From a virus, in IMG/VR virus record IMGVR_UViG_3300042554_000913, positions 1-35,775 of that record: a stretch of DNA of 35,775 nucleotides. One strand, given 5' to 3'. Shown here one piece after another: positions 19,720 to 30,104 of this stretch. Every line of letters begins with the position of its first letter. Within the stretch, counting starts at the first letter, position 1. The notes beneath the pieces were generated by a model that was given only the letters and a program-made list of their open reading frames with translations, had not been told where the DNA came from and did no database searches. A program made the position numbers and the translations under genes.

Positions 19720-20358
19720 TCACGGGGCGCGCAAGCCAGCGAGGTGCAGGAACTCCGCACGAGCCGGACCGTCACGCAAGCAGCCAAGCAGCGAGGAGGT
19801 CACCATGTCCGCGTCAGGTTGGCGCACGCCACGACAGCCCATGCACGAGTGATGCGCGCGCGCCACGACACCGACACCGAGTGGTCCGAGGACGCGTGCC
19901 ATAGTGTCCGCCACCTCTCGCGTCACCCGCTCTTGCATGGAGGCGCGGCGGCTGATGACTTCGACTAGCCGGGGGATCTTGGACAAGCCGACCACCTTGG
20001 CCCCGGGCACATACCCCACGGTCATCTCGCCGCTGAACGGCAGCAGGTGGTGTTCACACAGGCTGGTGTAGCGGATGTTCCGAACCAGCACCATCTCGTC
20101 ATAGCGCTCGTTGAAGACGGTGGTCAGCACCGATGCCGGATCAATGCGGCTGCCGCTGGTCATCTCTGCCAACGCTTTGCACCAACGGCGCGGCGTGTCC
20201 ACTAACCCTTCGCGCGTCGGGTCCTCGCCTACGCACCGCAACAAGTACCGGACACACTCCTCGGCCAGCACCGGGTTGGGCGCGAAGCCATGGGACGGGT
20301 CAACGGCCTGTGCTATCGCACTTGCCAAGCCTTGTGCATCTGAATGGATAGCCGCCAT
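19720..20358 (-). CDS. folE: GTP cyclohydrolase I
   Basis: 212 residues. Converts GTP to dihydroneopterin triphosphate, the first step to 7-deazaguanines and folate. Zinc and active-site residues are visible: TSLCEHHLLPFSG (Cys101, His104) and HHSCMGCRGVR (Cys172), plus DTPRRW and RLVEVISRR. Length and order match type I enzymes. ATG at 20358 has AGAGGA upstream; the gene overlaps the end of queE by 46 bases. As the last gene of the modification cassette it boosts precursor supply and so frees the phage from host folate flux. Confidence 0.93.
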   Translation of the reverse strand: MAAIHSDAQGLASAIAQAVDPSHGFAPNPVLAEECVRYLLRCVGEDPTREGLVDTPRRWCKALAEMTSGSRIDPASVLTTVFNERYDEMVLVRNIRYTSLCEHHLLPFSGEMTVGYVPGAKVVGLSKIPRLVEVISRRASMQERVTREVADTMARVLGPLGVGVVARAHHSCMGCRGVRQPDADMVTSSLLGCLRDGPARAEFLHLAGLRAP

Positions 20359-20948
20359 GCCGGATCCTCTTTGATGAGTTGCAGGCACCACTCAAGCGCC
20401 TTGCGGTCAATGGTCAGCCCGTTGAAAGCGGGACTGATGAGTTGATGTTGAGCCTTGCACGCCGGGCGCGGCAACGCCTGCCCATGACCGCGCACATACT
20501 TGACTTCGTTCGCAGTCAGTTGCCGGACCGCGTGCTCTGCGACCTTTGGGCTGATCGTGATCCAGTCGAGCCCGAGCGGGTCAAGGCAGATGCTGCCGTT
20601 GCTTTCGATAGCGCATCGGAACCCTGCATCTTGCGCTTGTGCTACCAGCGCGCGGTCTACCTGCAAGCCCGGCTCGCCCCCGGTGAAAACGATCCATGCC
20701 CCATTGGTCTTCATGTACTCATCGGTCAAGCCGCATGCCTCACGGACTGCCGCAATGATCTCCGATGCGGTCATCCTTCGCCCGGACATGAACTCCGTGT
20801 CGCAGTCGAAGCCGCCGGGGCTGCGCGGTCCCGGTTCCATAGTGCAGCGTAAGTTGCAGCCAGTGAACCGCACGAACGCGGACATCTGCCCGGCCCGCAT
20901 GCCTTCGCCTTGCGGTGACCAGAAGATCTCGTTGACTGTGTATGTCAA
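20313..20948 (-). CDS. queE: 7-carboxy-7-deazaguanine synthase (radical SAM)
   Basis: 211 residues from a TTG start. Converts 6-carboxytetrahydropterin to 7-carboxy-7-deazaguanine (CDG) with SAM and an iron-sulphur cluster. Cluster cysteines: GCNLRC and then CDTEF, spaced C-x3-C-x13-C; the stretch between (TMEPGPRSPGGFD) is an insertion also seen in other QueE branches. SAM-binding FTGGEPGLQ and WITISPK follow. TTG at 20948 is chosen because AAGGAG lies 8 nt upstream and it overlaps the queD stop as TTGA; GTG at 20957 would sit on the Shine-Dalgarno itself. Confidence 0.92.
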   Translation of the reverse strand: MTYTVNEIFWSPQGEGMRAGQMSAFVRFTGCNLRCTMEPGPRSPGGFDCDTEFMSGRRMTASEIIAAVREACGLTDEYMKTNGAWIVFTGGEPGLQVDRALVAQAQDAGFRCAIESNGSICLDPLGLDWITISPKVAEHAVRQLTANEVKYVRGHGQALPRPACKAQHQLISPAFNGLTIDRKALEWCLQLIKEDPAWRLSIQMHKAWQVR

Positions 20949-21352
20949 TGTGGCCACTCCTTTAGATCGTCAAGGGTTACTACGATTGTTGCGCTGTCGG
21001 TCTCTTGCAAGGCCAACTCGACACACCCGGGCAACGAGCGCGCGCACTGATCGAGCAGCCATGCAGCTAGATTCTCTGCGCTGGTTGGCCAGCCGAATCG
21101 CACCGCGCTATGCCCGAGCGCATCACACAGCGGGTCTGCATCGGCTAGCAAGGTGCGATGGTCGAGGCTGTCAAAGATCGGTCGCAGCCGACCATCGATG
21201 TCGTCAAACAGCGTAGTGATGCCATGGTGCGTGTAGGCGAGGTCAAGGGTTACCTCGACTCCATACCGATGACCGTGCAGACGAGCGCACTTGTCGTTGA
21301 GCCCATCGTTACGGTGAGCCGCGTAGAACCGGTATCGACGCTTGATCTTCAT
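20945..21352 (-). CDS. queD: 6-carboxytetrahydropterin synthase
   Basis: 135 residues, T-fold enzyme acting between FolE and QueE. Zinc ligands His13, His26 and His28 lie in AAH and LHGHRYG, and the catalytic Cys22 in KCARLHGH. Further family signs are SLDHRTLL, PTSAENLAAWLL and ETDSATIVV. Length is normal. ATG at 21352 overlaps the glycosyltransferase stop as ATGA and has GAGGTGG upstream. A shorter, diverged relative is encoded at 22859-23182. Confidence 0.93.
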   Translation of the reverse strand: MKIKRRYRFYAAHRNDGLNDKCARLHGHRYGVEVTLDLAYTHHGITTLFDDIDGRLRPIFDSLDHRTLLADADPLCDALGHSAVRFGWPTSAENLAAWLLDQCARSLPGCVELALQETDSATIVVTLDDLKEWPH

Positions 21353-22404
21353 GCAACCACCTCTTGAAGGAAGCCCTTGATGCTGGAATCGTACTGCTGA
21401 CTCACGATAGCAGGCATAGGCTTTGGTTGATTCATGTTTGCTGCAAGGCGGCTTTGGCCTAGCAGATCATCTTCGCCGTACAGCCAGTCCGAAGGCGACA
21501 ATCCGGCGCGCTGCAAGTGGTTGCGGTAAGACAGTCGGTTTGGTGCGATGACTGGTACACCTAAGGCGACGGCTTCCAAGAAACTGTAGCCAAAGGTCTC
21601 TTGGTCTGCTCCTGACCATACCGCTCCGACGGTGGCCAACCAGTTGTAGTAGTTCGCCTTACTAGCGTGCTGGACGATCTCGATCCCGGATTCTTTACAC
21701 GCTGCTGCCATAGTGTTTGATACTTGTCCGTTAGTGCTAACAGCAAAGGTCCAACCGCTGCTCTTCATTTCGCGCGCCAAACGCATGAACTCCCAAGGAC
21801 GCTTCTCGTCTGCCCATCTATGGTTGAATGCAACGATGCGACGGCGTTCCTTGTGACCGTGCTGTGCTACCTCGGCGTGATCCCACGGCTGTCCGGCGGC
21901 AACGCCTTTGCCTTTCAAGGTAACATTGCGCGACACAAACTCGCGATGGTGGTCGCTCCCAAACGCGACTGCGTCAAAGATGCCTTCGAGCAGCATGACT
22001 TCAAAGCGGCGTCCCCATACACCTAACGATCTTGTCAGGTAGTCATGCGGATCGAAGCAGCCAGCGTGGTGCCAGCCTGCGAACCTCACCTGAAGACCAA
22101 GAAGATCGCACTGGCACTTCACAGTTTCAATGCCCGGAAACCATACATCTCCTACAAGGATGATGTCGCCACTGCTAACTGCGCCGGCACCAATGTCCTT
22201 CGTCAACTGCAAGAGTTGTTCAGTCTTCCACGCTGCTGTTCCGACTGTATCTAGCCATTGGCCGTGCTTGATGACTCCCGTAGATGTGTTGCCGCTAACG
22301 CGACGCCATGCAAGGTTGGTGCTTGCCAACGCTTGGCACACCCAGCGATCAACTTGCTCGGTGTACCGCTCGTGTAACGGCTCTAATGGCAGCCAATGGA
22401 TCAC
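21349..22404 (-). CDS. GT-B glycosyltransferase resembling tRNA-queuosine mannosyltransferase
   Basis: 351 residues from GTG 22404 (GTGA overlap with the gene before). The N-terminal half starts with HWLPLEPLHERYTEQV and includes HHAGCFDPHDYL. The C-terminal half has VAFNHRWADEKRPWEF (about 192-207) and TFGYSFLEAVALGVPVIAPN continuing RLSY (270-293). The FNHRW and NRLSY signatures are those I associate with the GTDC1/DUF3524 family, which mannosylates queuosine in tRNA, and the second motif is the nucleotide-sugar site of GT4-like enzymes. Lying between DpdA and QueD, it probably sugars a 7-deazaguanine base in phage DNA; the sugar and acceptor are unknown. The family link is by motif memory, not by search. 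Confidence 0.75.
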   Translation of the reverse strand: MIHWLPLEPLHERYTEQVDRWVCQALASTNLAWRRVSGNTSTGVIKHGQWLDTVGTAAWKTEQLLQLTKDIGAGAVSSGDIILVGDVWFPGIETVKCQCDLLGLQVRFAGWHHAGCFDPHDYLTRSLGVWGRRFEVMLLEGIFDAVAFGSDHHREFVSRNVTLKGKGVAAGQPWDHAEVAQHGHKERRRIVAFNHRWADEKRPWEFMRLAREMKSSGWTFAVSTNGQVSNTMAAACKESGIEIVQHASKANYYNWLATVGAVWSGADQETFGYSFLEAVALGVPVIAPNRLSYRNHLQRAGLSPSDWLYGEDDLLGQSRLAANMNQPKPMPAIVSQQYDSSIKGFLQEVVA

Positions 22405-22868
22405 AGGATGATCGCTTTGTCGTTGGCGTAATCCGCAGGCACAGTTACTTGGCCTTGGCTTACAGGAACTGTGATCATGTGATACGGCTCGCCTATTGAG
22501 ATCTCGTCGGTTGGTCGAAGTTGTGCGTGCCACTTACAGCCCCAAACACGAACCATAAGACGCACCTTCTCTGCCACTGGCAAAAGGAAGAATGCATCGA
22601 CTTGCTCCGCAGTCCTCCCGGCTGTTACTTGAATGTCCTTACTGCGTGCCCACGGCACAATTTCTTCCGCAGCCCATTCCCATGCTTCGAACTGTTCTGT
22701 TAGGAACAGATGTTCCGGCTCCTGTTCGACTACAGCTTGCCACTCGGCAAGAGAAAGTTCGCGTCGGATGATGGCAGTTCGTAATCCGAGACACACCTTG
22801 CCTTCTACTTCATCGCCAAGGAATGCAGGTGACTGATCTAGAGCCGAACACGGATGAGTCATGTCCAT
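22401..22868 (-). CDS. Modification-cassette protein of unknown function (155 residues)
   Basis: ATG at 22868 has AGGAG eight bases upstream and overlaps the end of the QueD-like gene by 10 bases; the stop overlaps the glycosyltransferase start. The sequence is acidic with many Trp and Glu residues (EQFEAWEWAAEEIVPWARSK) and a beta-like C-terminal half (VRVWGCKWHAQLRP, YHMITVPVSQGQVTVPADY). No signal peptide, membrane segment or known motif. Tight packing between DpdA, QueD-like and glycosyltransferase genes suggests a part in making or protecting the modified base. Confidence 0.75.
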   Translation of the reverse strand: MDMTHPCSALDQSPAFLGDEVEGKVCLGLRTAIIRRELSLAEWQAVVEQEPEHLFLTEQFEAWEWAAEEIVPWARSKDIQVTAGRTAEQVDAFFLLPVAEKVRLMVRVWGCKWHAQLRPTDEISIGEPYHMITVPVSQGQVTVPADYANDKAIIL

Positions 22869-23182
22869 ACTTCTGCTCCTTGCTTGCCGTCCTCAAGCAC
22901 GGCGCACCGCGCAAGCCGGTGCTGATTGCAGAGCCATGAAGCGATTTGTTCGCACGACAGAGTCCCGAAGTCGCCGCCAAAGTGCGCTTCTAATGACTCC
23001 CTCACTGCGTCTGCCAGGTCGAAGCACTCTACAGCACGATCTCCATGCGGCACCTCTTTCCACGCCGTGATGCAGAAGGTGTGCCGATGCTTGGCCCTTA
23101 AAAACGATTGACGCTCTGGAGCATCTGGCCAACAATGGACTCCAATCGCTTCAATCGATGCACAAACTAGTTGTCTGCTCAC
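22859..23182 (-). CDS. Small QueD-like (T-fold) protein
   Basis: 107 residues from GTG 23182, preceded by GGAGG six bases upstream; the frame is open further up but only this start has a ribosome site, and the gene overlaps the dpdA end. The order of motifs follows QueD in shortened form: GVHCWPDAPE, then HRHTF in place of HGHRY, a helix DLADAVRESLEAHFG, SCEQIASWL in place of PTSAENLAAWL, and CAVLEDGKQGAEV in place of the ET.SA strand. The first His and the upstream catalytic Cys context differ, so it may not be a carboxytetrahydropterin synthase. It could process a pterin or deazaguanine intermediate or scaffold QueD. Confidence 0.6.
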   Translation of the reverse strand: MSRQLVCASIEAIGVHCWPDAPERQSFLRAKHRHTFCITAWKEVPHGDRAVECFDLADAVRESLEAHFGGDFGTLSCEQIASWLCNQHRLARCAVLEDGKQGAEVWT

Positions 23183-24134
23183 GTAGCACCTCCAGCGTTT
23201 CTGATATACGGTCGAGTCTTTGCTTTGGCTTGACTTGGCACGCTCGGAACTCTGCCCTTGCTTTGTGGTAGTCGAAGCGGCCGTCAGCCAAAGAGTACCG
23301 CAGTCCGATGAGAATGCGCGCTGCTGCAATCCAGTTGCTAGCCGCCAAGAACACATTGACCCCGTGTCGTCGGGAATACACTGACCACAAGGCACACGCA
23401 GTCGATTGCGCGAACGCAACAAACGATGCTGCGCCTCGGTCGAATATCTGTTCGTCGTTGATGTCAGCCTTCGACATCCCGCAATCGCGTATCCACTCTT
23501 GCCATTCTGCAGAAATACCTTTGGCACGCCTTTCGGCTGTAGTGAAATACTTGATTCCGTTTCCGCGCGAGAAGCGACCGAATAAGCCGTAACGCTCTCC
23601 CGCAGAGTGTGTGCTTGAATCGCAACTCGTCAGGCCGAGCGAATACATCTCTGGCCACCGAATGTAGCCAAGCCCATGCAACTGCGCAGTCGGCGCAGCC
23701 GCATGGGCTTGTAGGTAGCGATTTTGAATCCACGCTTCTTTGCCGTGGAAGGTGCCCAGCGCACCTGCAATACAGATACGGCTGTTGATCTGCTGGAACT
23801 CTTGCAGCCGTGCATACGGTGCATCAACAGTAAGCACAGGCATTGGATTCACGCCTGCGTCGACCATTGCGTGCAGATTGCGGAGCGAGCCTTCCTCGTC
23901 CCCGATTACATCTAACTGAATGCATCCCCAGACTTGCGGCGAAGCGAGGTAATACTTGCAGGCCTCAATGTAGTTTGTGAGCCGGATTCGGACGCCTAAC
24001 CTATGCGCCGAGAACGCGCCGCTGTCGATGAGGACGCACGCTCCTTCTGTGTTCATCAGCCTGTGACACAGCGCAGATACTGTATTAGATCTGCCAGATA
24101 GATAGTGATATGAAAACAGCAGCGACGGGATCAT
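23151..24134 (-). CDS. dpdA: DpdA-type 7-deazaguanine transglycosylase (TGT-like)
   Basis: 327 residues. Related to tRNA-guanine transglycosylase but acts on DNA, exchanging guanine for a 7-deazaguanine base. LIDSGAFSAHRLG near residues 35-47 corresponds to the DSGGFQ active-site motif of TGT (catalytic Asp37). IQLDVIGDEEG carries further acidic residues. HGLGYIRWPEMYSLGLTSCD followed by SSTHSAG has the HxLGxxxxE...SxDS pattern of phage DpdA. Start ATG 24134 forms an ATGA overlap with the ParB-like gene; ATG 24158 has no spacing to its purine run. With FolE, QueD and QueE alongside, the assignment is strong. Confidence 0.88.
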   Translation of the reverse strand: MIPSLLFSYHYLSGRSNTVSALCHRLMNTEGACVLIDSGAFSAHRLGVRIRLTNYIEACKYYLASPQVWGCIQLDVIGDEEGSLRNLHAMVDAGVNPMPVLTVDAPYARLQEFQQINSRICIAGALGTFHGKEAWIQNRYLQAHAAAPTAQLHGLGYIRWPEMYSLGLTSCDSSTHSAGERYGLFGRFSRGNGIKYFTTAERRAKGISAEWQEWIRDCGMSKADINDEQIFDRGAASFVAFAQSTACALWSVYSRRHGVNVFLAASNWIAAARILIGLRYSLADGRFDYHKARAEFRACQVKPKQRLDRISETLEVLREQTTSLCID

Positions 24135-24724
24135 GACATTGACGCTACAGACGACCATCCTTCGCGATCAATCAAGGCTTCGATTGCCGCTTTGATCTTC
24201 GCCCGTGACGGCATGTCAGTCACCTTCACAACGATCTTTTCGGAGTATTGGACCTCACGCTCCGCAGCGTTTTGTTCCGGTGCTGCAAACTGTGACGGCC
24301 CGAGCAGTTGTGCTAGATCGCCTTCCGTGAATCCTGTTGCTTCGATGGCTATGCCATTGGCGGCAAGGTCGCGCAGCAGTAAGTCAAGGCCATCCAAGTC
24401 CCATCCGGCGAGTTCTGCAGTCCGGTTGTCTGCAACGGCATAGGCGGCTGCTTCAGCGCCTTGCAGCGTTGTGCGAACCACTGCCACTGTTGTCCAGCCG
24501 AGTTCTTTCGCTGCTTGGAGACGACCGTTGCCTGCCAACACCTTGTTGTCCATCGACACCAGTAGCGGCATCTGTTGGCCGAATCGCTGCAAGCTGGTTT
24601 TGAGCGCCGCAAGATTGCGTTCCGGATGCTTGCGAACATTGGTCGGATCAAGAACAAGTTCATCGATTCGCACTTGCTCATAGGTCAGCAGTTGGAGGTT
24701 GTGGTCCTTGGTCGTTCGTGCCAT
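24131..24724 (-). CDS. ParB-like nuclease-fold protein next to dpdA
   Basis: 197 residues. The N-terminal half is a ParB/Srx-type domain: RIDELVLDPTNVRKHPERNL, KTSLQRFGQQMPLLVSM, VLAGNGRLQAAKELGW (the GxxR/NGR box) and a following VADNRTAELAGWD. The C-terminal half is short and has no HTH I can see. ParB-like proteins (DpdB) accompany DpdA in bacterial 7-deazaguanine DNA islands, where they are needed for base insertion, so a helper role, for example an ATP-dependent or DNA-binding step, is plausible. The start could also be ATG 24736. Lies between the HNH gene and dpdA with overlaps on both sides. Confidence 0.8.
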   Translation of the reverse strand: MARTTKDHNLQLLTYEQVRIDELVLDPTNVRKHPERNLAALKTSLQRFGQQMPLLVSMDNKVLAGNGRLQAAKELGWTTVAVVRTTLQGAEAAAYAVADNRTAELAGWDLDGLDLLLRDLAANGIAIEATGFTEGDLAQLLGPSQFAAPEQNAAEREVQYSEKIVVKVTDMPSRAKIKAAIEALIDREGWSSVASMS

Positions 24725-25325
24725 GCCTAACACCATACTCTGTTGACCATCTGCTGGCTAGCCATGCTTGTTCGTCTGTTACGGCGTCTGGTATCGCGCC
24801 TACCTCGTGCGTTACTACGGGAATCTTCCATCTGCCTGCTGCCTGCTTGCACCAAGCCGCATCATCAAGGCTGATAGTCAACTTCAAGTCTGATAGCAGT
24901 CCTCCTGACCATGCGCTGATCACGCCTTCCGCAGCCGACAGCATGAGCCTATGTGCTTGCTGCCAACTGAACCTTGCCGCGGCTTGTCGTCGAATGACGC
25001 GCCAGTCAAAGCCTGCTACTGCTTCTGCATTCAACGACACACATATCAGCGTTAGGCTCGAGCGTTCTTTATTGCGCCGAGCCGAAAGGTCTGCGGGAGT
25101 CTTGACTGCGTCGTGACATCGCTTGCAAAGCGGTTGCAGGTTGTCGGTTGTGTTTGTGCCGCCGTCGCGAAGCGGGACAATGTGATCAACAACCGCCGCG
25201 GCTACGGTCCGTCCCGCTGCTAGGCATAAGCGACACAAGGGCTGCTCACGCAACAGCGCCATACGCTGCTTACGCCATGATGCGTCGTATGGCGACTGGC
25301 CGATCTTCGGTGGCTTGTATGGCAT
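24678..25325 (-). CDS. HNH endonuclease with C-terminal extension
   Basis: 215 residues. Residues 1-90 are a standard HNH nuclease: CRLC and CKRC zinc pairs, VVDHIVPLRDGG, and DNLQPLCKRCHDAVKT. Residues 95-215 are an added domain (SSLTLICVSLNAEAVAGFDW, KLTISLDDAAWCKQAAGRW) with no P-loop. It vaguely follows the outline of the kinase domain fused to HNH in some phages, perhaps degenerate. The ATG at 25325 overlaps the RusA stop as TGATG. Position at the head of the modification cassette, away from terS, raises the question whether it spares modified phage DNA and cuts unmodified DNA. Confidence 0.85.
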   Translation of the reverse strand: MPYKPPKIGQSPYDASWRKQRMALLREQPLCRLCLAAGRTVAAAVVDHIVPLRDGGTNTTDNLQPLCKRCHDAVKTPADLSARRNKERSSLTLICVSLNAEAVAGFDWRVIRRQAAARFSWQQAHRLMLSAAEGVISAWSGGLLSDLKLTISLDDAAWCKQAAGRWKIPVVTHEVGAIPDAVTDEQAWLASRWSTEYGVRHGTNDQGPQPPTADL

Positions 25326-25756
25326 CACTGGCCGGGCAAGTTGAAGCCCATCGGCTGAACCTTGATGCTCACGCAGTCGGAAGCAGAGTCGATCTTGCCG
25401 CTGGCCTTCTCGGCAACCTGCGCGTCATCAAGCCAGATCCCTGCCTCGGTCAAAGCGTCCATCACTGCCTTCTCTAAGTTGTCGAGGTCTGGGCGCGCGA
25501 TGCGCCAGCCACGGCTCTTGCGCCCGGTCTTCTTGAACGCGAACACGCACTCAAGGCGCACCGGGCCTTCGATCGGACCGCGCTTACGATGCTTCATGGC
25601 TTCTGCGATGATGGCCTGCCTGTACGCGTGGACTGGATGCGCACTCGGGATGTAGTGCTTGACGAAGCCGCCGCGTGCGGTCACGCTGTGACGCGGCTGC
25701 GCGACGGGCTTGACGTGGACCACGAAGTGGATCACTTCATCTGCGTCAGCATCCAT
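25325..25756 (-). CDS. rusA: RusA-like Holliday junction resolvase
   Basis: 143 residues. Resolves branched recombination or replication intermediates before packaging. The family motif [19 protein letters not shown] with catalytic aspartates is clear, followed by [11 protein letters not shown]. An N-terminal strand region ([20 protein letters not shown]) is typical. ATG at 25756 has a strong AGGAGG seven bases upstream. Overlaps the 74-residue gene before it by 25 bases and is coupled to the HNH gene after it. Confidence 0.92.
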
Positions 25757-29040: not shown

Positions 29041-29844
29041 TCAGCCGCGCTGTGCCTTCGGGATCAGATCCCACTGCCGCTTGCTAACCCATCCGCAGCC
29101 GCGACAGGTGTCGCAGCCACTGCCTTCGCAGATGGGGCAGACCTTGTACGGCATCGCCTGCTTCAAGGCGGTACGGGCGTTCTTGAGGTCCGCCTCCACC
29201 GACTGCGCATTGATGTAGTGCCCATGCGCAGTGCCTGCCACGCGCTGCACGGCCAGCAACGCATCATCGGTAGCCTTGATGGCGACCTCGACCGCCGCCT
29301 CTGCTGCCATCATGAGGCGGTCAACTTCACTGACCTCACCGATGTCCTCGGCGACCTCTAGGGCTTCATCGACCTGCGCTGCGATCTGCTGGTCAAGCGC
29401 CTCTGCTTCTTCGGCTTGCTTGGCGTGCAAGCGAACCATCTCGCGCGTTACCGCACAGTGCGCTGCGATGTCCGCATGACTTGACTCTGGTCGCGCCAGC
29501 AGCGCGAGCGCGACAGCGCGTCGCTTGTCCGCGTTCGTGCGGCGCACACCGTGCCGCAGGTTGGCCTGCGCAGCCAGCCAGATCGCGTCCATGCGGTTGC
29601 CTGTGGTGACCACGGCTGCGATGGTCTTCGCCTTCAAAGCCTTCGCGGCCATCACGCGGTGCCAGCCGTCCACGCAGTACAGCGTGGCACCGTCCTTGAC
29701 CACGGCGATAGGCGGGAACACCTCGCCTTCCTCCATGGCCACCTTGTAATCCTCCACTGCCTCTGCCGTGACCGACACGCGTGGCTGCATGTCTCGATCC
29801 AACACAATGTCCTTGACTTTCAACTGCTGTGTCTTGTCTGCCAT
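29041..29844 (-). CDS. ParB-like protein with HTH and zinc-finger end
   Basis: 267 residues. ParB N-terminal fold at about 5-100 (DIVLDRDMQPRVSVTAEAVE, EVFPPIAVVKDG, YCVDGWHRVMAAKAL), an HTH near 125-150 (SSHADIAAHCAVTREMVRL), a long acidic helical stretch, and a Cys cluster CPICEGSGCDTCRGCGW at the end, like a DnaJ-type zinc finger. Probably a DNA-binding regulator or replication/partition-like factor. The ATG at 29844 follows AGGACGCAG, the same ribosome site as the helicase gene. Distinct from the ParB-like protein at 24131. Confidence 0.8.
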   Translation of the reverse strand: MADKTQQLKVKDIVLDRDMQPRVSVTAEAVEDYKVAMEEGEVFPPIAVVKDGATLYCVDGWHRVMAAKALKAKTIAAVVTTGNRMDAIWLAAQANLRHGVRRTNADKRRAVALALLARPESSHADIAAHCAVTREMVRLHAKQAEEAEALDQQIAAQVDEALEVAEDIGEVSEVDRLMMAAEAAVEVAIKATDDALLAVQRVAGTAHGHYINAQSVEADLKNARTALKQAMPYKVCPICEGSGCDTCRGCGWVSKRQWDLIPKAQRG

Positions 29845-29867
29845 CTGCGTCCTGCAATCTTCCCGCA

Positions 29868-30104
29868 TCAGAACCCGAATGCTCCGCCCCCGACGAGCGG
29901 GGGCAACCGAGGGCGGAACAGTGCATCGTCACCGTCATGTCCTGCGCTCATCTCACCATTCTGCTGCAGACGATGCAGCCACCGCGTGAGCGCGTCGAGT
30001 GCGAAGCCTAGTGGCCTCGGCGCGAGGTAGGGGCGTGAGTCCTCGCGTCTTGCGTCATCGACCTTGACGAAGCCATGTCGGCTGGCTCCATGCGCCCCGC
30101 AGGG
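29868..30104 (-). pseudogene. Orphan open frame without start codon between ERF and ParB-like genes
   Basis: The 336-base gap 29845-30180 holds a frame open for 78 codons from the stop at 30107-30105 to TGA at 29868. It has no ATG, GTG or TTG near its beginning, but reads like protein (GFVKVDDARREDSRPYLAPR, ALDALTRWLHRLQQNGEM) with high-GC third positions. Out-of-frame ATGs at 30092 and 30077 open a 27-residue frame. A sequencing indel, a programmed frameshift or a decayed gene would each explain this. Its stop forms TGATG with an alternative ATG of the ParB-like gene. The gap also has a 7-bp GCCCCCG/CGGGGGC hairpin at 29886-29904. Confidence 0.35.

Follow-up and report, generated by a model that had tools for sequence, protein, structure and literature searches.

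A predicted 7-deazaguanine DNA-modification cassette that lacks QueC and carries its own putative glycosyltransferase suggests a sugar-bearing base in phage DNA

The phages 9g, CAjan and Rosebush encode FolE, QueD, QueE and DpdA, exchange a base in their DNA, and are protected against restriction (PMC6884629); in phages of this Que/DpdA type the modification may be only partial, for example at 15% of deoxyguanosine (PMC12028318). The pathway formed by FolE, QueD and QueE ends at 7-carboxy-7-deazaguanine (CDG; PMC13329287), and for Mycobacterium phage Bipper, which lacks only QueC, CDG has been suggested as a possible base (PMC6884629). Replacement by 7-deazaguanine and glycosylation of bases are both known anti-restriction defences, and we found no report of the two on one DNA base. 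Here we analyse a 35,775-base fragment of a virus, the IMG/VR contig IMGVR_UViG_3300042554_000913 (hereafter, the window), in which the genes for FolE, QueD, QueE and DpdA share an operon with those for a glycosyltransferase (GT), a QueD-like protein (Ql) and a 155-residue protein (u155). We put at roughly two in three the probability that this operon is a cassette for 7-deazaguanine modification of DNA that does without QueC and, through a GT of its own, places a sugar-bearing base in DNA.

The cassette occupies the minus strand between an HNH gene (24678-25328) and the small terminase gene, and runs in the order ParB-like, DpdA, Ql, u155, GT, QueD, QueE, FolE. The seven genes from DpdA to FolE span 19720-24134, and the ParB-like gene (24131-24736; phrog_620 2.4e-36, ParB_N 4.2e-05) is coupled upstream. 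All junctions overlap: ParB-like and DpdA through ATGA, DpdA and Ql by 32 bases, Ql and u155 by 10 bases, u155 and GT through GTGA, GT and QueD through ATGA, QueD and QueE by 4-13 bases, and QueE and FolE by at least 46 bases. Library matches identify three genes of 7-deazaguanine synthesis, namely FolE (GTP cyclohydrolase I; 19720-20391, from GTG 20391 or ATG 20358; PF01227 3.8e-62), QueD (6-carboxytetrahydropterin synthase; 20945-21352; PTPS 1e-21, TIGR03367 2e-18) and QueE (7-carboxy-7-deazaguanine synthase; 20313-20957, from GTG 20957 or TTG 20948; TIGR04508 2.3e-40, phrog_2076 8.4e-28). The DpdA-type guanine transglycosylase (23151-24134, ATG 24134; 327 residues) matches phrog_887 (9.8e-24), named 'queuine tRNA-ribosyltransferase', as do 24 of 24 aligned DpdA members, throughout which Asp36, Asp74, His152 and Asp171 are invariant (numbered without the start methionine); Asp36 and Asp171 fit the conserved aspartates expected of a DpdA-type transglycosylase. 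Neither the sequence nor the profile of DpdA found a meaningful match among solved structures. Family membership thus supports well the assignment to a 7-deazaguanine DNA-modification cassette, and the preliminary description of this DNA was right to place FolE, QueD, QueE and DpdA in one overlapping operon, with the GT, QueD-like protein and 155-residue protein embedded by overlaps between dpdA and queD.

Scans of viral contigs with the window GT or DpdA as single proteins returned no relatives; the family is too diverged for such scans, and a profile was needed. By tblastn, GT relatives at 22-29% identity were found in public phages, comprising ACP17, Phosso, the PA5oct/Paride/PAC2 group, BUCT-ZZ01 and X1, five isolates or groups from different hosts (Acidovorax for ACP17 and Xanthomonas for X1 among them). 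In all five isolate loci examined the GT clusters with QueE and, except in PAC2, with FolE, and each cluster holds a Ql homologue; most of these proteins are annotated as hypothetical, and the names were assigned here. A profile built from six GTs then recovered 374 relatives in IMG/VR viral contigs, the best 80 of which provide the linkage counts. FolE, QueD or QueE lies within 8 kb of the GT in 64 of the 80 loci, a figure that rises to 70 with window-type DpdA, and to 78 when an ACP17-type DpdA-like protein or Ql is also counted. The ACP17-type family matches window-type DpdA weakly by profile comparison (E 0.0087, probability 4.6), and counts are therefore also given without it. The two exceptions are a contig with QueE elsewhere (L044) and a 10.8-kb fragment (L059). 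Where flanks are complete, 43 of 48 loci contain FolE, QueD or QueE, and the full-length GTs form 40 clusters at 70% identity, 39 of them with a pathway gene, ACP17-type DpdA counted. None of 52 random viral stretches, chosen by an arbitrary 15-mer, contains any of these genes; a scan with the GT of phage PhiXhv-15, tried as a control, returned nothing, and the random contigs were used in its place. This tie to the pathway supports the GT as part of the cassette, and comparative genomics gives their coupling strong support. The co-occurrence of FolE, QueD, QueE, DpdA, Ql and GT families in unrelated phages likewise argues against a chance arrangement. A search of 84,980 bacterial and archaeal genomes gave four matching contigs, all from metagenome bins and all with Ql, so that this GT family occurs almost exclusively in viruses.

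The lack of QueC, on which the preliminary description was silent, bears directly on the chemistry. Neither QueC nor QueF was found in the window (matches to QueF all fell below the cut-off, the window's own being FolE itself), and neither QueC nor the Gat-QueC fusion that would mark a preQ0 or archaeosine subtype is present. QueC is also absent from the complete genomes of ACP17, Phosso, PAC2 and BUCT-ZZ01, in a search that scored 181 bits for the positive control, Vid5; among complete GT-bearing isolates the sole trace was one match below the cut-off, in X1. QueF, too, is missing from the complete genomes of related isolates. Ql accompanies the GT in 67 of the 80 loci and QueC in none (0/80), and no QueC lies near any of 159 GT or Ql loci. 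Three viral contigs gave short matches that barely passed the cut-off and spanned about 70 of 210 positions; these were not taken as QueC. With neither QueC nor QueF, the cassette is not of the preQ0 type and its base should derive from CDG, which, judging by gene content, is what the cassette alone is predicted to make, rather than preQ0.

Related phages show what stands in QueC's place. A large-terminase search returned 33 related contigs, two of which (L178 and L179) encode a terminase 71% identical to that of the window and have the order HNH, ParB, a different DpdA, QueC (Pfam 1.9e-59), QueD, QueE, FolE, small terminase, large terminase. Their QueD is 73%, QueE 80-81% and FolE 65% identical to the window proteins, and the gene order at this spot indicates that QueC occupies the position of Ql-u155-GT; this replacement, and the absence of QueC from the 159 loci, count in favour of a sugar-bearing base. 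QueE and FolE were seen in two further fragments (L180 and L181), and no pathway gene in the stretches covered by the remaining contigs, many of them short. A second feature that had gone unremarked is the low third-position guanine-plus-cytosine (GC) content of the block from HNH to GT (0.49-0.60), against 0.65 for QueD, and 0.72-0.81 for the small terminase, FolE, QueE and other measured genes. This suggests that the segment up to the GT was recently exchanged beside an older QueD-QueE-FolE set. In the window's QueE (20313-20957) the cysteines are spaced as C-x3-C-x13-C (CNLRC...DC), not as CxxxCxxC; the same pattern occurs in the QueE of a QueC-bearing sister, and is probably a working variant.

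The GT itself (21349-22404; 351 residues) matches Glycos_transf_1 (7.8e-05) and is read from GTG 22404, within the GTGA overlap with the u155 stop, in place of a start at 22533. Its AlphaFold2 model, from a 70-sequence alignment, has a mean pLDDT of 93.8 and a GT-B fold; it is structurally closest to sucrose-phosphate synthase, BshA and MshA (Z 25.6-27.0, root-mean-square deviation (rmsd) 3.1-3.4 Å over 310-326 residues). The E-x7-E motif (ETFGYSFLE in the window) and the Arg/Lys donor site are present, with Arg195 and Lys200 kept in 69 of 70 sequences and Glu276 in all 70, and an N-terminal signature of Glu7 and Arg12-Tyr13-Thr14 (RYT) is retained in 67-69 of the 70. The protein is hence predicted to be a GT4-like, retaining GT-B glycosyltransferase with an intact donor site.

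Such a fold also invites the reading, unlikely in our estimate, that the GT acts on a small molecule of the pathway, whether a pterin or free 7-deazaguanine, to yield a soluble metabolite or a base prepared for insertion by DpdA. The fold is also that of tetrahydrobiopterin (BH4) glucosyltransferases (Z 23.5-23.8), and pterins are products of FolE and QueD; yet many other GT4 enzymes score at least as well as the BH4 enzymes, which are missing from the sequence matches up to E 0.1. The conserved gene set further includes QueE and DpdA-type genes, for which pterin chemistry has no use, and in three loci (L011-L013) a u155-like gene and the GT are followed directly by DpdA, with neither Ql nor any pterin gene nearby. 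This pairing, together with the intact donor site, the near-confinement to viruses, and minimal cassettes of which the smallest complete example is QueD-QueE-FolE-Ql-GT-DpdA-ParB (L015, L020), favours instead a sugar placed on the DNA base.

It is also improbable that the DNA carries a plain, sugar-free 7-deazaguanine (CDG or its decarboxylated form) while the GT serves another end, such as host surface sugars. Que/DpdA phages without a GT do exist, the close sisters included, and in large marine phages an epimerase, a UDP-sugar dehydrogenase, a cytidylyltransferase and a phosphoribosyltransferase stand near the GT, close to DNA polymerase; the sugar genes among these could serve surface polysaccharides. 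A surface GT, however, has no reason to track Que/DpdA genes across unrelated phages when the background is 0/52, or to have its translation coupled to u155 on one side and QueD on the other, and the proximity of nucleoside-diphosphate-sugar genes and DNA polymerase in the marine members counts rather for a glycosylated DNA base. That the GT modifies host transfer RNA (tRNA) queuosine, as tRNA-queuosine mannosyl- and galactosyltransferases do, is most improbable: glycosylated 7-deazaguanines do occur in tRNA (PMC12518689), but the route needs QueC and QueF, which the cassettes lack (hosts may have both), the transglycosylase is DpdA-like, and the library scan of the window hit no queuosine-mannosyltransferase Pfam model.

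Neither Ql nor u155 matched a named family in library scans. For Ql (22859-23182, GTG 23182; 107 residues) the only hit was phrog_17812, of unknown function (2e-10). Its AlphaFold2 model (mean pLDDT 96.3) has the tunnelling fold of QueD/PTPS and the zinc-binding histidine triad, and superposes on E. coli QueD (4ntm) with Z 12.9 and an rmsd of 2.1 Å over 105 of 107 residues, dihydroneopterin aldolases scoring lower (Z 9.9 or less). All 53 aligned sequences keep His16, His32, His34, Arg49, Glu52, Ser76, Glu78 and Glu97, and also Leu28, beside the position of the QueD catalytic cysteine that precedes HxH and has no counterpart in the window protein. Ql is therefore a QueD paralogue rather than a QueD enzyme, the QueD reaction being precluded by loss of the cysteine. 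It may instead act on the carboxylated base, which would fit its modelled fold, its zinc site, and a glutamate that takes the position of the pterin-binding residue. A predicted CDG decarboxylase, to which Ql may or may not correspond, was reportedly named DpdL by Cui et al. in 2023. Four isolates, RHph_I1_18 (L168), Ahp1_CNU-2021 (L169), Bakedbeans (L170) and MA9V-3 (L171), carry Ql, FolE and QueE, and neither a GT of the window family, QueC nor a phrog_887 DpdA was found in them; they would be useful controls for the role of Ql without a GT. In Bakedbeans and MA9V-3, Ql forms the C-terminal part of a longer protein.

Relatives of the u155 protein (22401-22868) immediately precede the GT in three other cassettes (L006, L047, L026). 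The protein resembles the 'EVEG' family present in 47 of the 80 GT loci (hhalign E 3.7e-06 in a single comparison, probability 87), to which we assign it.

Taken together, the genes suggest the following scheme. The observed families FolE, QueD and QueE would convert GTP to CDG (reactions per PMC13329287). DpdA would put CDG, or a base derived from it, in the place of all or only some of the guanine in phage DNA, as expected from DpdA biology (PMC6884629). Ql, in QueC's stead, might alter the 7-substituent or ready the base. The GT would then glycosylate the 7-substituent with a nucleotide sugar as donor, most probably once the base is in DNA, and u155 may assist it. Such a bulky base would be expected to shield phage DNA from host restriction. 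In the absence of QueC, the sugar could be attached to the 7-carboxylate, to C7 itself once the carboxylate is lost, or to a group introduced by Ql or some other enzyme. The preliminary interpretation thus stands as regards the 7-deazaguanine cassette, through its families, and the coupling of the GT, through comparative genomics, while we infer the sugar-bearing DNA base, that is, the identity of the sugar, its linkage and DNA as acceptor.

Several points weigh against this scheme. The sugar-bearing base is predicted from genes; with neither QueC nor QueF, no classical hydroxyl or amine acceptor is evident on the base. As the window is a fragment, QueC may sit elsewhere in the genome, or it may come from the host. 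A predicted GT-B fold says little on substrate, as glycosyltransferases of pterins and thiol precursors look alike. The profile seeds were, moreover, already Que-linked and possibly favoured linked relatives, although a contrast as large as that between GT loci and random stretches is hard to explain by such bias. We nonetheless consider that the gene set probably points to an undescribed sugar-bearing DNA base. Far more tentative is the proposal that an entire phage class, small siphoviruses and jumbo phages alike, has a glycosylated 7-deazaguanine, derived from CDG with no QueC involved, in the place of guanine. The sugar linkage would then be one new to DNA, either an acyl glycoside formed on the 7-carboxylate or, once Ql has removed the carboxylate, a carbon-carbon glycoside at C7.

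Other observations concern variation among the cassettes. An additional radical-SAM protein, in some cases with a SPASM domain, lies between Ql and GT in L008 (6736-8001), L016 (7049-7990), L018 (6260-7021), L023 (5467-6180), L025 (5073-5888) and L026 (6802-7518), which suggests further variants of base or sugar. A phosphoribosyltransferase is found in 38 of the 80 GT loci and recurs in large-phage cassettes (L004 10345-10779, L005 4084-4545); as TubE of the tubercidin pathway acts on CDG as a phosphoribosyltransferase (PMC6112128), the base may take a nucleotide route in large phages. The Xanthomonas PhiXhv and Erwinia Ep032 group was set aside, its match covering only 55% of the query in a different arrangement. 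In Xanthomonas phage PhiXhv-15 (L007, 6618-10704), a Gat-QueC fusion, which bears the annotation of an aminotransferase, and a PIG-L deacetylase are followed by a distant GT and a sugar oxidoreductase, with QueE elsewhere in the genome; this set may form a system of its own for attaching an amino sugar to an archaeosine-type base. The ParB-like gene adjoins DpdA also in related cassettes and in mycobacteriophages, and the window encodes a second ParB-like protein outside the cassette (29041-29868; phrog_1033 4.1e-15). The remaining window genes include those for packaging, portal, capsid and tape-measure proteins, and a recombination/replication block.

The window cassette belongs to a widespread class with a predicted chemistry, and the same gene set is present in the isolated phages ACP17, Paride, X1, Phosso and BUCT-ZZ01. 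It offers a reason for the lack of QueC in these Que/DpdA phages, and yields a glycosyltransferase family and a QueD paralogue for chemical study. Our literature search found neither a link between GT and DpdA nor a glycosylated 7-deazaguanine in DNA, though key papers lay outside it and a prior description is possible; a report on PA5oct notes a deazaguanine system, in passages that leave a window-type GT unmentioned (PMC7824862).

Among known systems, T4 provides an analogy, in that a phage GT adds a sugar to an already modified DNA base to give glucosyl-hydroxymethylcytosine (PMC13216743); there the base is cytosine with a hydroxymethyl handle, whereas the window GT has a BshA-like GT4 fold and sits in a Que/DpdA operon. 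Animal mannosyl- and galactosyl-queuosine likewise bear a sugar on a 7-deazaguanine, but in tRNA, on a cyclopentene handle, and by the full queuosine pathway (PMC12518689). BshA, MshA and the BH4 glucosyltransferases share the fold and donor-site residues of the window GT, and differ in sequence (9-15% identity), in gene context, and from the RYT signature of the phage family. The tubercidin pathway, through TubE, uses CDG from QueE-type chemistry without QueC, yet leads to a free nucleotide antibiotic rather than to DNA, and employs a UbiD-type decarboxylase, not a QueD-like protein (PMC6112128). Bipper shares the lack of QueC, with no GT described (PMC6884629). In 9g, CAjan and Rosebush, for which no GT is mentioned, QueC or Gat-QueC directs the pathway to preQ0 or archaeosine, respectively (PMC6884629); the window has Ql-u155-GT instead.

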